Below are positions 16,674 to 30,014 of a stretch of 64,000 nt of DNA, piece by piece. This DNA is from Candidatus Omnitrophota bacterium. Lineage in GTDB: Bacteria; Hinthialibacterota; Hinthialibacteria; Hinthialibacterales; JAKPRU01. Position numbers and translations under genes: made by a program. The notes below the pieces were generated by a model. That model saw only the letters and a list, made by a program, of their open reading frames with translations. It made no database searches and was not told where the DNA came from. Numbering within the stretch: the first letter of the stretch is position 1; every line of letters starts with the position of its first letter. The stretch lies in assembly GCA_029570205.1 (NCBI GenBank), contig JAKQSI010000034.1:1-64000 (forward strand), written 5' to 3'.

Positions 16674-18074
16674 GTGAATCAAACAAGAAACCAATATGAA
16701 GCCCTCCTCTTCGATTTCGATTACACCCTGGCGGACTCTTCCAAAGGGATTGTCGAGTCTATGAATTACGCATTCAACTGCATGGGGCTACCGCCTGTGT
16801 CGTCGGCGGAAATATGCCGGACCATCGGTCTGTCGCTGTCGGATGCGTTAGCCGTTCTACAGGGTGAGGAGTACCGTGTCCGAACCGGGGAATTTACAAA
16901 CCTGTTCGTGTCCCGTGCCGATCAGATTATGGCGGACATGACCGTTATCTACAAGGATGTCCCGGAAACATTGGAATTGTTGAAAAGTCGCGGTTACCGG
17001 TTGGGAATTGTCTCGACAAAATATCGTTATCGAATTGAATGGATTCTGGAGCGAGCGCATCTGCTGCATTATTTCGATGTCATTATCGGCGGCGAGGATG
17101 TTTCCAGTCACAAGCCGGACCCGCAGGGCCTGTTGAAAGCGGTAGAGAAACTGCGAGTACAGAAAAGCCGGGTGCTTTATGTGGGCGACAGCGTAACGGA
17201 TGCGGAGACCGCTGCACGCGCCGGGATTTCGTTTGCCGCCGTTTTGACCGGAGAAACACCTGCTGGGGCCTTTGATCATCACACGACAATTGCCGTATTT
17301 CAGTGTTTACATGATCTACCGGAGTTCCTTGCCACTTCTGCTCCTGACTGGTGGGCCGAATGGTTCAATGAAGAGTATCTCCAGGTTTATCCGCATCGGA
17401 ACAGGCAGAATGCCGAGGGGGAATCCCGCGCCGCGATTGATTGGGTGGGACTTCAGCCGCAAGATCGAGTTCTGGACCTGTGCGGCGGAACCGGGCGACA
17501 TACATCGTGGCTGATCGATGCGGGGATTCGGCATGTCACCGGATTGGATTATTCGGAGACGATGCTGAACACAGCACGAAGGCGGTTGGGAAAGGACGCC
17601 GTCCTGGTGCGTGGGGATATGCGGGATCTTCCGTTTATGAGTTGTGTCGATGCGGTGTTAATGTTTTTTACCTCGTTCGGCTATTTTGTGACAGATAGAG
17701 AGAACGAGCGGGTTATTCATGAAATCTCACGGGTATTGCGACCCGGCGGCGGATTCCTGTTTGATTACCTGAACCGGGAGAAGATTATTCGTGAATTGGA
17801 ATCGGAAACCGTGCGAACCCTCGGCGAAACGGCAATTCGTGAAACGCGATATCTGGTAGAGAACGGAAAACGTGTGTTCAAGGAGATTGTCATTACCTGT
17901 AATGGAGAGACCCATCGATACAGCGAATCGGTGCGGCTGTATTCGCTGGAAGAGCTGATGTGTATGTTCGAGGCCGCGAAACTCATGCCGGAGAGGTTGT
18001 ACGGGGATTTCGACGGGACACCGTACACGAGCGCCTCGAGCCGTCTGATCCTGGTATCGGCCGTGCGGCGCTGA
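16674..18074 (+). CDS. Fusion of HAD-family phosphatase and SAM methyltransferase
   Basis: 466 residues with two complete domains. Residues 1 to about 222 form a phosphoglycolate-phosphatase-type HAD hydrolase: motif I LLFDFDYTLADS, motif II IVSTK, motif III Lys in SSHKPDP, motif IV YVGDSVTDAETAARAG. Residues about 230-466 form a class I methyltransferase: motif I VLDLCGGTGRHTSW, acidic residue in VTGLDYSETML, then ISRVLRPGGGFLFDYLN. All key residues appear intact. The start is GTG with GAGG upstream. The pairing suggests removal of a phosphate and methylation of the same or linked small molecule, which is inference. Confidence 0.85.
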   Translation: MNQTRNQYEALLFDFDYTLADSSKGIVESMNYAFNCMGLPPVSSAEICRTIGLSLSDALAVLQGEEYRVRTGEFTNLFVSRADQIMADMTVIYKDVPETLELLKSRGYRLGIVSTKYRYRIEWILERAHLLHYFDVIIGGEDVSSHKPDPQGLLKAVEKLRVQKSRVLYVGDSVTDAETAARAGISFAAVLTGETPAGAFDHHTTIAVFQCLHDLPEFLATSAPDWWAEWFNEEYLQVYPHRNRQNAEGESRAAIDWVGLQPQDRVLDLCGGTGRHTSWLIDAGIRHVTGLDYSETMLNTARRRLGKDAVLVRGDMRDLPFMSCVDAVLMFFTSFGYFVTDRENERVIHEISRVLRPGGGFLFDYLNREKIIRELESETVRTLGETAIRETRYLVENGKRVFKEIVITCNGETHRYSESVRLYSLEELMCMFEAAKLMPERLYGDFDGTPYTSASSRLILVSAVRR

Positions 18075-25923: not shown

Positions 25924-28065
25924 TCAACAGGTGACCTCAATTCCCCCGGCGGCTTGTCCGGCTTCGCGGATCAGAATCATTGGGCTTGTTTGATAACGAC
26001 GTGAGAAGTGGAAGATATGGAGACGTTTTACATCCGCCTCTCTGGCGAGGGACCCGGCCTGAAATGCTGTAAGATGGAATTTGCGTTTGGCCTGTTCTGC
26101 ATCCAATTGCTGAGAGAAAGCCGCCTCGCAGAGAAACAGGTCGGCATGACGCGCCAGTTCGACAATGCGTGCCCGCGTTTCGTCGGTAAACACAGTGTCT
26201 ACCACATAAGCCACTTTCCGCCCCGGATACTCTACCAGTAAATCTTGCGCCAGCGGCCGCGCAGGATACTCTTTGCCCCGGATATCAATCGTCGTTGCAT
26301 CCAGCGTACCGGAACGCCAGGCGGTCTTCAGCGCATTCAGCCAGGGTCCAGGGCACAGACCGGAAGATTCCAGACGGTCCTTATCAACTCGGACAAAGGC
26401 AGGTTCCTCGATGGCATATCCCAGACAAGGCATTCCATGGCGCAAAGTTGCCGCTCGAAATAAGAATCGCTCCGTCTCAAAAATGACCCCGTGGTGCGGA
26501 TGGGAGGCCTCCTCTTCACGGCGCGCAAACGCTGTCTGCATCGAGATATTCGATATGGTGACAGCCGATTCGTCGATCTCATGGATCCGAATATCTAATC
26601 GAAGCGATCGTCGCAGATTCCAGATATAACTTCGCAGGCGGTGTTGAACCTGCGCGGCAATATGTGGAGGACCGAAAACGTGGAGCAGGTTCGGGCGGTT
26701 GAGTGAATGGCGAAGAATGTGATCGAATCCGATGAAATGGTCGATATGGCTGTGCGTAACAAAGAGGTAATTCATGCGGCGGATATCGGGAGGACGAAGC
26801 GGAAAGGTGCGCCCCAGATCGAACAGCCCACACAGGTCCAGGTTTCCATCAAAGAAAAACACACAGGGATCTCCCGTTCGTCCGGAAATAACACGAACTC
26901 CAAAAACACAATCGTTTTCCGCTGTTGCCTCCGAATAGGCCCGCAGAGGTGTTCGGCGGACCTTCCGGCGAAGATGAAACTGTTCGGTACAGGTTTGCTC
27001 GAATTGATGGAGGTCACGCAGCAGACCGGGAGGGATTTCAACACCGGCCAGACGTTTTGCGCGGAGTATGATCTGGTCCACATTGATCAGCAGGTCTTTC
27101 CAGGCAGCGGGGATCGTATCGGGGCGAATACACCCGCAAACCGCCCCTGCGATGGCAGTGACACTTCCCGCATCCGGCCTCGCGTGGAGGATTTCCGTGA
27201 TGGTCCCCTCGAAATCGAACGCCCGGCTCGATGCGAACCAGATTGCCGATGAAACTCCGGCAAGTGACAGGCCCGCTGAAGCGGAAACCGGGGCGCCGAA
27301 CAGTTCGGATGCCCGCCCCGCAATTTGTTCCAACGCGCTCTCCCGATCCAGGTCCAGGCTGGTTTCCACCGCTTGCAGCATTTCCGACATCTGGTGAAGG
27401 AACGGCGCGGAATCCAGCGTAATCCGGTTGCGGTAATCCCTGTCCATGCGGTTTTCCGCTTCCGACACGGTTTCGATGGTTCGTCGCAGGCGCACCGATG
27501 CGACGGTCTCATCCTGTTCTCCTCGTCCACTCTGTCCACTTATTTCATCGAAAATCAAAAACGCGACCGCAACAGCCGCCGCAATCGCCCTCGGATCGCG
27601 ATGGGTCGGCAGGGACAGGCGAATAGCCTGCTCGATCAATTCGGTCCGGTCCGTGGCAACCAATCCCAGGGGTGCGATTCGGGCCGCTGCGCCCATTCCG
27701 GGCGAGTCCGCTCCCGATTGATCCCAGGCCCAACCCGCTTTCAATTTATCGATGGACATGCGGAAATTCCGCCCCGGCCGCCGGAAACTCCCCAGCGGCA
27801 GGTGTTTCGGACCCTCCGACATGCGAAGAAATCGGGCACACAAATCCTCCGGATTGGGTCCCCCACATTCGGCCAGCGATTCCGCCAACAGCAAAGCGCG
27901 TTGCGTGTCTGACGTGTACAGAAGAAATCCGCCCGGCAGTCTTCTCGGCGAATGATCCGATGGAGCCTTGGACCGGTCCGGATTCCCGCCGTGCGCGTTT
28001 GTCCCGAACGCATCGCCGACGGCAAGCCCGACCAGGCAACCGATATATTTTTCGATGGGATTCAT
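25924..28065 (-). CDS. Fusion of ADP-ribosylglycohydrolase-like and RNase Z-like domains
   Basis: 713 residues. Residues about 1-330 resemble ADP-ribosylglycohydrolases: GCLVGLAVGDAFG, TSDTQRALLLAESL (family TDDT), LPTHRDPRAIAAAVAVAF, then RPDAGSVTAIAGAVCG (family GxDxDTxAAIxG). Two metal-binding Asp appear lost (TDD to TSD, DxDT to DAGS). Residues about 390-713 form a metallo-beta-lactamase domain of the tRNase Z type with intact signatures: VTHSHIDHFIGFD, TLRHGMPCLGYAIEE, VAYVVDTVFTDE, LFLCEAAF, FHLTAFQAGSLA and HFSRRY. Such enzymes cut tRNA 3' trailers or act as phosphodiesterases. ATG 28065 is preferred to a TTG at 28077. The fusion is not one I recognise. Confidence 0.82.
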   Translation of the reverse strand: MNPIEKYIGCLVGLAVGDAFGTNAHGGNPDRSKAPSDHSPRRLPGGFLLYTSDTQRALLLAESLAECGGPNPEDLCARFLRMSEGPKHLPLGSFRRPGRNFRMSIDKLKAGWAWDQSGADSPGMGAAARIAPLGLVATDRTELIEQAIRLSLPTHRDPRAIAAAVAVAFLIFDEISGQSGRGEQDETVASVRLRRTIETVSEAENRMDRDYRNRITLDSAPFLHQMSEMLQAVETSLDLDRESALEQIAGRASELFGAPVSASAGLSLAGVSSAIWFASSRAFDFEGTITEILHARPDAGSVTAIAGAVCGCIRPDTIPAAWKDLLINVDQIILRAKRLAGVEIPPGLLRDLHQFEQTCTEQFHLRRKVRRTPLRAYSEATAENDCVFGVRVISGRTGDPCVFFFDGNLDLCGLFDLGRTFPLRPPDIRRMNYLFVTHSHIDHFIGFDHILRHSLNRPNLLHVFGPPHIAAQVQHRLRSYIWNLRRSLRLDIRIHEIDESAVTISNISMQTAFARREEEASHPHHGVIFETERFLFRAATLRHGMPCLGYAIEEPAFVRVDKDRLESSGLCPGPWLNALKTAWRSGTLDATTIDIRGKEYPARPLAQDLLVEYPGRKVAYVVDTVFTDETRARIVELARHADLFLCEAAFSQQLDAEQAKRKFHLTAFQAGSLAREADVKRLHIFHFSRRYQTSPMILIREAGQAAGGIEVTC

Positions 28066-28083: not shown

Positions 28084-29082
28084 CTACTGGGATTTCACAT
28101 TGTCGGCGTGTTCCACCTGGCCGATCACAGCGCGGCCATCCGGAGAAACAAGACGAACCTCCACCTGCATGGGGGAAAGCGCAATTTCCGGAGGGATTCG
28201 ATATTGTCCCCGATATCGGCCCGGGGCGATCTCGGTCAGTGGAAACAACCGATTCATGTCATCAAAGAAAAAGGATGCCGCACAGCCTGCTGTTCCTTCG
28301 ATGATGACTGTCAGCGTATTCTCCTCCAAAACGGCATTGACAGCGCCGATCGCCAAACTGGGTTCCTTTGATTCGGACCGAGCGTTCGCCCTTTCCTTTT
28401 GTTTGGAAGAGGTTGACTTGATTTGCCGAGTGGATTCTCTTGCCTGTTCCTGACTTGTCGGTTGCGGCATAAGGCATTCCCACAGCCCGTGGGTGGCATC
28501 GAATGCGCATTCATGCAGGAACCGTTTTCTCATGCCGCGCAAAGGTTCTAAAGCGAGGGCCGTTAGGCCGGTTGGAATGCCGGTCAGGCCCTTCTGGAAT
28601 CTCGCTTTCGATTCCGCCTCCCAAACCCGCTCGCCGGTGTGTCCATCGACCATGGATGCCCGGACAGCAACAGAGGTCTGTGACTGTAAAAGGAAATATC
28701 GCTGTGTCCACGCAGTCAACTGGGGATAAATCAGAAAATCCACATTGAGTAACTCGGCGAGGACTTTGGGATCTTGCTCGCTCCAGCGACTGTCCTGCAA
28801 AAGACCCTTTTTCTCAAGAAGGTGGTCTACGGCAGCCGGTTCCATGAGGCGAAACTCCGGGATTTCCAGTAACTCACCATAGAAAGCGCGGCGGGTATGG
28901 CGCGAACCTTCTTCCCAATTCTCTTTCGCCTCCATCGGCAAAAGGGCCACACGGACCGGCCTGTTGAGATCGATCTTTGGAGCAACGACTATTTTTTTCG
29001 AGACAGAAGATTGAACAGAACTCGCCGGAATGCAGATCAAAGCGACAAACAGAATGTAATGGATACGGACAGGCGCCTTCAT
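28084..29082 (-). CDS. Exported GNA1162/DUF799-like protein, copy 1
   Basis: 332 residues with a signal peptide (IHYILFVALICIPASSV). The central region resembles the GNA1162 lipoprotein family, which is related to the CsgG/TolB-N fold: VRVALLPMEAKENWEEG, FRLMEPAAVDHLLEKKGLL, LAELLNVDFLIYPQLTAWTQ, then MVDGHTGERVWEAESKA. A charged linker (about 230-260) leads to a C-terminal beta-sandwich-like region (FPLTEIAPGRYRGQY), which its upstream neighbour shares. No lipobox Cys is apparent. The start ATGA overlaps the neighbour's stop, so the two are translationally coupled. A role in an envelope complex is likely but unproven. Confidence 0.65.
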   Translation of the reverse strand: MKAPVRIHYILFVALICIPASSVQSSVSKKIVVAPKIDLNRPVRVALLPMEAKENWEEGSRHTRRAFYGELLEIPEFRLMEPAAVDHLLEKKGLLQDSRWSEQDPKVLAELLNVDFLIYPQLTAWTQRYFLLQSQTSVAVRASMVDGHTGERVWEAESKARFQKGLTGIPTGLTALALEPLRGMRKRFLHECAFDATHGLWECLMPQPTSQEQARESTRQIKSTSSKQKERANARSESKEPSLAIGAVNAVLEENTLTVIIEGTAGCAASFFFDDMNRLFPLTEIAPGRYRGQYRIPPEIALSPMQVEVRLVSPDGRAVIGQVEHADNVKSQ

Positions 29083-30014
29083 GGGAGTGTCACTGCCTCC
29101 TGTTCGACTCGCCGTACCGCGGCCACCCCAAGGCGGGATTCCAGACGAATCCGCACTTCCTGACTCGCGGCGGAATCGTTCGGCTGGGCGATATAGCTGC
29201 CTCGATATATCCCGCTTTCCACTTCCCAAAGCGGGATGTATCTTCGAAAAGATCCGATATCGAATGTGGCGATACAATCGGGAGTCCCCCGGATTTCAAC
29301 GGTAATCTCTTTCGGCGGACCGGGTTCGATTTTCACCTGGCCGGTTTCTATCACCGGCGTGAGAATCACCAGATTTTCGGCCGGCGGAAGAGTCAACAGG
29401 ATTTTGCGCATAGCATCTCTCACAGTGTTTTCTAACGTCCGTCGGCGTTGCGCCTCGTTGCTTGAGAGTTCGGAAAGGAATTCGGTTGCCAGCCCAGTAT
29501 GGAGTAGAAGTCCGCCGTACCGTTTGGATTCCGCCGTTCCCTGCCAGTGCAACGTTTCGGATTTTCCATCGACAAAGGAAATCCGAATGCCGAAAACTGT
29601 GCGGTTCCAGAGGCCGCTCTTGCCCAGAGAGGCTTTTGTGATCTCGCCTTCCACCAGTGTTCCCGCGCCGATGAGGGATGCCAGATCGCTTGATTTCATT
29701 GTCTGCCAACGGTTCTCTTCCAGCAATCCTGCATCGCGGATCTTCTTGAGGACTGCCGCTTCGTCCATGTCTTCATAAGGCAGGGCTGTGAAGGACTCCG
29801 CAAATATCCTGCGCGCGAGCCGGGGAAGGTCTGCAAGGCTTTCTCGGACTTTCGGTTTGACCGCCTCGTTCCAGGTGAACGGGAGAACCGCAACCGGGGA
29901 GGCCAGATCAAGAGACGCCGCGTGAACGCCGGGGATCTCCTTTTTGGCCAAGCTGTATCCGGGGAACATGCAGATCGACAGCAGAACCAGACAGGGTAAA
30001 GAAATCCGAAACAT
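29079..30014 (-). CDS. Exported GNA1162/DUF799-like protein, copy 2
   Basis: 311 residues with a signal peptide (ISLPCLVLLSICMFPGYSLA). The layout matches its downstream partner: SPVAVLPFTWNEAV, YEDMDEAAVLKKIRDAGLL, LASLIGAGTLVEGEITKASL, WQGTAESKRYGG. A C-terminal Ig-like segment follows, with GTPDCIATFDIGSFRRYIPL and EVESGIYRGSY. The two proteins look like diverged paralogues that may form a hetero-oligomer at the outer membrane or in the periplasm. It is first of a two-gene unit and lies 150 bases after the Pro-rich gene, with a terminator in between. Confidence 0.62.
   Translation of the reverse strand: MFRISLPCLVLLSICMFPGYSLAKKEIPGVHAASLDLASPVAVLPFTWNEAVKPKVRESLADLPRLARRIFAESFTALPYEDMDEAAVLKKIRDAGLLEENRWQTMKSSDLASLIGAGTLVEGEITKASLGKSGLWNRTVFGIRISFVDGKSETLHWQGTAESKRYGGLLLHTGLATEFLSELSSNEAQRRRTLENTVRDAMRKILLTLPPAENLVILTPVIETGQVKIEPGPPKEITVEIRGTPDCIATFDIGSFRRYIPLWEVESGIYRGSYIAQPNDSAASQEVRIRLESRLGVAAVRRVEQEAVTLP

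Follow-up and report, generated by a model that had tools for sequence, protein, structure and literature searches.

Results

A two-domain gene on the minus strand

Within the window, as we call the 64,000-nucleotide stretch of DNA that was analysed, the minus strand carries at positions 25924-28065 one intact gene of 713 codons plus stop, with its ATG at 28065 and its stop codon at 25924-25926; the strand was missing from the original prediction. The encoded protein joins an N-terminal ADP-ribosylglycohydrolase-like (ARH) domain, probably catalytically dead (residues 1-345; 27031-28065, minus strand), to a C-terminal RNase Z of the PRK02126 type with a metallo-beta-lactamase (MBL) fold (residues 386-713; 25927-26910, minus strand). 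Between them the predicted model places a helical linker (residues 346-385; 26911-27030, minus strand), which contains HLRRKVRRTPLR and is less conserved, with 72.5% identity to the orthologue in the congeneric genome G001.

Two further genes lie upstream on the same strand. Gene B (28084-29082, minus strand), which ends 18 nt before the fusion, encodes a GNA1162-like putative lipoprotein (PF05643, E = 2.8e-10); gene A (29079-30014, minus strand) is its paralogue (about 26% identity), the two overlapping by 4 nt. The order A, B, fusion is conserved in three species, the other two being the congeners G001 and G002. These tandem putative lipoprotein genes (28084-30014) are odd neighbours for a tRNA enzyme, and the gene cluster of the fusion holds no ADP-ribosyltransferase partner. 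Elsewhere in the window (16674-18074, plus strand), a 466-aa frame combines a HAD-family phosphatase with a SAM methyltransferase domain.

The joining of the two domains within 713 residues, as originally predicted, was confirmed by Pfam and NCBIfam profiles and by intact orthologues in the genus. Pfam detected ADP_ribosyl_GH at residues 9-314 (E = 2.5e-40) as well as Lactamase_B_2 (E = 2.3e-13), and sequence matches in the PDB divided in the same way, the N-terminal half matching the Thermus ADP-ribosylglycohydrolase and DraG and the C-terminal half the RNase Z of B. subtilis and E. coli. The gene is present in one copy in its own genome, which is 93% complete. A search for the same fusion in related genomes, proposed at the outset as a check, found it open and intact in two further species of the genus (96% and 85% identity, no internal stop). 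Since these sequences come from separate assemblies, the fusion is not an assembly error, and the identical gene order in the three species likewise rules out a chimera. No close relative was seen to carry the two domains as separate genes; the genomes of the same order and class lack the PRK02126 half entirely. Chance as an explanation of the observation is excluded by the profile E-values, the conservation and dN/dS values well below 1 in both halves.

The ARH and MBL folds were aligned apart; when ARH-only and MBL-only sequences were placed in one alignment, the former were misaligned to the MBL half. In the full-length structural model the ARH half and the domain arrangement are unreliable (pLDDT mostly < 60 there).

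The nuclease half retains a complete tRNase Z active site

Residues 388-707 match nearly the full length of the NCBIfam profile PRK02126 'ribonuclease Z' (NF002558; E = 8.6e-90), at a score of 301-304 bits that lies slightly under the curated cut-off of 315, with the next-best profiles below 130 bits. The RNase Z signatures quoted in the original prediction are all there: HSHIDH (438-443), RHGMPCLGYAIEE, VVDT, FHLTAFQAG and HFSRRY. The first of these (26737-26754, minus strand) is the zinc-binding motif II, HxHxDH, invariant in our alignments, and together with the His, Asp and His of motifs III-V it accounts for the seven metal ligands H438, H440, D442, H443, H543, D623 and H686, all of them kept. 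Also kept are the HEAT Glu (E647, in a CEAA variant) and the HST His (H664, in an HLT variant). These nine residues are invariant in an alignment of 17 sequences and likewise in one of 33.

Motif definitions for tRNase Z, including the flexible arm with its GP motif, were taken from PMC3161902. The arm, or exosite, of the fusion spans residues 555-612 (26230-26403, minus strand), with PGPW at 572-575; its motif LCPGPWLNALK lines up with the arm of canonical RNase Z, and the predicted model shows it as a high-pLDDT insert. The PxKxRN loop, the CCA antideterminant, is absent both from the fusion, which has RTGDPC instead, and from the aligned PRK02126 members, and we therefore do not file the protein as a canonical bacterial-type tRNase Z. 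The Thermotoga-type tRNase Z likewise has no such loop (PMC3161902).

AlphaFold2 modelled the nuclease half with a pLDDT mostly above 90. Upon comparison by Foldseek and VIA-align, the best match was B. subtilis RNase Z in complex with pre-tRNA (4gcw; Z 29.1, rmsd 2.4 over 277 residues), so that both the PRK02126 profile and the superposition of the predicted structure back the proposed tRNase Z nature of this half. Against G001 its dN/dS is 0.05. With metal ligands, HEAT Glu, HST His and GP arm intact, the nuclease half looks fully functional.

The ADP-ribosylglycohydrolase half has lost its metal site and remains under selection

The ARH fold assignment is solid by sequence (PF03747, 139.4 bits against a gathering cut-off of 26.2) and is supported by Foldseek on a weak model (pLDDT 53), for which the top rows were mostly ARH3, DraG and other ADP-ribosylglycohydrolases, and also included 2cwc. 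A fold of another kind, which had been named as grounds for rejecting the prediction, was thus not found.

Alignments place the degenerate TDD metal motif at T51-S52-D53 (27907-27915, minus strand; NSD, with N51, in G001) and the degenerate DxDT motif at D298-A-G-S301 (27163-27174, minus strand). The loss of two metal-ligand Asp residues noticed at first (TDD to TSD, DxDT to DAGS) is real and occurs in all three species. To this we add a further loss, that of the Glu-flap Glu of GDAxGxxxE, which is replaced by His (Pro in G001); the complete binuclear metal site and Glu flap of an active ADP-ribosylglycohydrolase are accordingly missing throughout the genus as sampled. With one metal Asp gone from either motif, and the Glu flap gone too, the ARH half is probably dead as a hydrolase.

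Whether such a domain would bind instead of cleave, as had been suggested, can be judged against human ARH3, in which hydrolysis suffers when any of the four Asp ligands is mutated (PMC8141533). By alignment, Asp77 of ARH3 corresponds to Ser52 of the fusion and Asp316 to Gly300. The D77A exchange removes Mg-A and abolishes catalysis while affinity for ADP-ribose goes up 23-fold, which favours the suggestion; Asp316, however, coordinates Mg-B, and loss of Mg-B in D314A makes ADP-ribose binding 44 times weaker (PMC8141533). One of the two exchanges thus speaks for retained binding and the other against it, and loss of hydrolysis is the safer prediction.

Compared with G001 across > 340 codons, where gaps are very few, the ARH half has a dN/dS of about 0.17; its rate of evolution is roughly three times that of the MBL half. 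Purifying selection at this level shows that the ARH half is still selected for some role.

The nearest stand-alone ARH gene is found in an unrelated genome (G053, L007:1312-2685, minus strand); its 458-aa product (32% identity) has intact TDD-type and DTDT motifs. Because this relative keeps the metal motifs, the losses in the fusion probably followed or accompanied the joining of the two domains. The same protein carries a long, strongly basic C-terminal tail (RRGRPAPAKTREKPSAQVRKGKRQK...) that is suggestive of nucleic-acid binding. An origin of the ARH half from paralogues of its own class was ruled out, no match at E <= 1e-3 being found in the class outside the genus despite the PF03747 genes there.

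tRNA 3' ends and the distribution of RNase Z genes

Encoded CCA is absent from 41 of the 42 tRNA genes of the genome, and a 3' endonuclease acting ahead of CCA addition is therefore expected. No second RNase Z-like gene was recognised in this genome or in either congener, the next-best profile matches in the former being a PhnP/GPMC-type protein, a COG1235-like MBL and a class-B-like MBL. At 93% completeness a further RNase Z could sit in a gap of the assembly; both relatives are also without one. As the sole RNase Z-like gene in a genome with almost entirely CCA-less tRNA genes, the fusion is the probable housekeeping tRNase Z.

Two genomes of the same class (G010 and G012) are devoid of both PRK02126 and canonical RNase Z, and CCA is encoded in 19 of their 22 sampled tRNA genes. 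The sister family, represented by G003, likewise has no PRK02126 and no canonical RNase Z, and 10 of 11 sampled tRNA genes are without CCA. This genome, which belongs to the same order, does encode an MBL of 270 aa that has no arm and is partially similar to RNase Z (L188:603-1415), with similar-sized matches in G004-G008; it may be the tRNase Z of the sister family, whose tRNA genes mostly lack CCA.

Among 386 genomes, PRK02126 was found in 32 and canonical RNase Z (counted at E <= 1e-60) in 63, with an overlap of 0 against 5.2 expected (P = 0.0026 under independence, phylogeny being ignored). This mutual exclusion fits replacement of one by the other. A rule by which PRK02126 goes with CCA-less tRNAs was ruled out; the pattern is mixed, and stand-alone PRK02126 genes are also present in genomes whose sampled tRNAs encode CCA (G018, G044, G137 and G257). 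Plasmid copies of the stand-alone gene were encountered in Pseudomonadota, in both alpha- and betaproteobacteria. Given its presence on plasmids and beside CCA-encoding tRNAs, the subfamily need not share one function. We found no experimental characterisation of any PRK02126 protein in the literature.

Distribution of the fusion and likeness to known proteins

Beyond the three genomes of the genus, the PRK02126 profile scan of 386 genomes yielded no ARH-PRK02126 fusion, nor was there one in 5 and 77 genomes from two PRK02126-bearing phyla. It was equally absent from 55 named loci among the matches listed by a GTDB-wide scan with one motif pattern, which rare members may escape. In phage and plasmid records, where no fusion was found, matches were MBL-only or ARH-only. 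The PADLOC defence-protein models gave no match for the fusion protein, and on this absence a defence gene was ruled out. The initial statement that no system of this form has been described is borne out within the literature searched, which leaves aside most subscription journals: no paper pairs 'ADP-ribosylglycohydrolase' with 'ribonuclease Z', and none names PRK02126. The combination of ARH with a PRK02126 RNase Z was thus seen in one genus alone among the genomes searched and in none of the papers.

The closest relatives of the C-terminal half are the stand-alone PRK02126 proteins (NF002558), which share 28-40% identity over about 320 aa and all active-site residues with it and, unlike the fusion, have no N-terminal ARH domain. 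With the bacterial-type tRNase Z of B. subtilis (RNase Z) and E. coli (RNase BN/ElaC) the fusion has in common the MBL fold, metal ligands, HEAT and HST residues and GP arm (Z 29.1 and 27.9, respectively); it differs from them in having neither the PxKxRN loop nor the longer C-terminal tail, in a longer insert after motif II and in the attached ARH domain. In overall plan it resembles the long-form RNase Z (ELAC2, yeast Trz1), where an active C-terminal MBL nuclease and a dead N-terminal partner share one chain. In ELAC2, however, the exosite is provided by the dead half, itself a second MBL; the dead half of the fusion has an unrelated ARH fold, and the arm stays with the active half.

The N-terminal half shares its fold and the motifs GxxxGDAxG, SDT and TH with DraG, ARH1, ARH3 and Thermus 2cwc, from which it is set apart by the loss of two metal-ligand Asp residues and the Glu flap and by the attached nuclease. 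Among vertebrate proteins, ARH2 (ADPRHL1) has an ARH fold suspected to be catalytically inactive (PMC7050489) and is in this sense a pseudo-hydrolase like the head of the fusion, but it has no link to a nuclease.

PRK02126 domains are joined to other partners as well. Three loci (L100:3008-5038, L121:2936-4966 and L096:1835-5014), from Chromatiaceae, Thioalkalivibrio and deltaproteobacterial MAGs, encode an N-terminal Clp1-like P-loop NTPase (PF16575) ahead of PRK02126. The nuclease subfamily is the same and the N-terminal partner unrelated, a P-loop NTPase of the Clp1/Grc3 RNA-kinase type with intact Walker A in place of ARH; these proteins possibly combine an RNA kinase with an RNase Z-like nuclease. 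On a plasmid of Limimaricola variabilis (L211:5980-7629), a PRK02126-type MBL is fused to C-terminal GXWXG and DUF4334 domains, and relatives of this nuclease occur as stand-alone copies on rhizobial, Methylocella and Eleftheria plasmids.

Discussion

We favour the interpretation, to which we assign a probability of about 0.58, that the fusion is the housekeeping tRNase Z of the genus, carrying a pseudo-ARH head kept as an accessory module. Its C-terminal domain would cut the 3' trailer of pre-tRNA after the discriminator base, whereupon CCA could be added. The N-terminal domain, having presumably lost catalysis, would serve by binding a ligand such as ADP-ribose or NAD, by binding a partner, or by aiding dimerisation or tRNA placement. 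In a version of this proposal that we consider improbable, the dead pocket would bind ADP-ribose, NAD, or an ADP-ribosylated protein or RNA, thereby switching or directing the only RNase Z of the cell, so that tRNA 3' processing is gated by an ADP-ribose reader.

Three other explanations have to be weighed against the housekeeping reading. The head might be a stand-alone ARH gene that was joined by chance, lost its function and remains as a scaffold for folding or stability. The degenerate catalytic site and the threefold faster evolution of the ARH half (dN/dS 0.17 vs 0.05) agree with such a history, and ARH-fold subunits in PDB entries of chloroplast FtsHi motor complexes (Foldseek ranks 1 and 17) offer a possible non-hydrolase precedent; a dN/dS of about 0.17 sustained over > 340 codons nevertheless represents more constraint than a decaying domain should experience, and we consider a neutral origin unlikely. 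The original prediction went in another direction and envisaged recognition of ADP-ribosylated RNA ends. More broadly, the ARH head could bind ADP-ribose carried by modified RNA ends or by proteins bound to RNA, upon which the RNase Z would cut the RNA in repair or quality control. ARH3 can reportedly act on ADP-ribosylated RNA in mammals, and the nuclease of the fusion is intact. The effect of D77A, equivalent to Ser52, in ARH3, where catalysis is abolished and ADP-ribose affinity rises 23-fold (PMC8141533), would also suit a reader. Against this stand Gly300, which affects the Mg-B site on which binding by ARH3 depends, the lost Glu flap, and the apparent status of the protein as the sole RNase Z, which points to housekeeping duty. 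With no ADP-ribosyltransferase in the operon and nothing specific pointing to ADP-ribosylated RNA ends, the predicted recognition found no direct support; we regard the reader model as improbable, and the genome data are explained more simply by an ordinary tRNase Z whose head has been repurposed.

Least probable, in our estimation, is an action on proteins, in which the MBL domain would strip AMP from AMPylated proteins and the ARH head would help to recognise modified proteins. ARH enzymes are, after all, classical erasers of protein modifications. The RNase Z enzymes of E. coli, yeast and human have been described as potent deAMPylases, a newly reported activity of RNase Z for which the exosite matters (PMC12663964). 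The ARH site of the fusion is degenerate, however, and the AMPylase SelO was found in none of seven genomes (its own, the two congeners and four class relatives) by a search that covered SelO among the AMPylases and whose control was positive in 4 of 14 genomes. Because SelO was not found in the genome and its relatives, a SelO-linked deAMPylation is weakened.

Bacterial tRNase Z has been described as a short, single-domain form, and dead partner domains are known from the eukaryotic ELAC2. The bacterium studied here appears to have made a two-domain tRNase Z by use of an unrelated pseudo-hydrolase, and thus an accessory domain of a new type. PRK02126 itself has received little study; in several lineages it appears to stand in for canonical RNase Z, and elsewhere it is joined to different partners. 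Should the ARH pocket have kept the ability to bind ADP-ribose or NAD, tRNA maturation in this genus could be coupled to NAD state or to ADP-ribose signalling.
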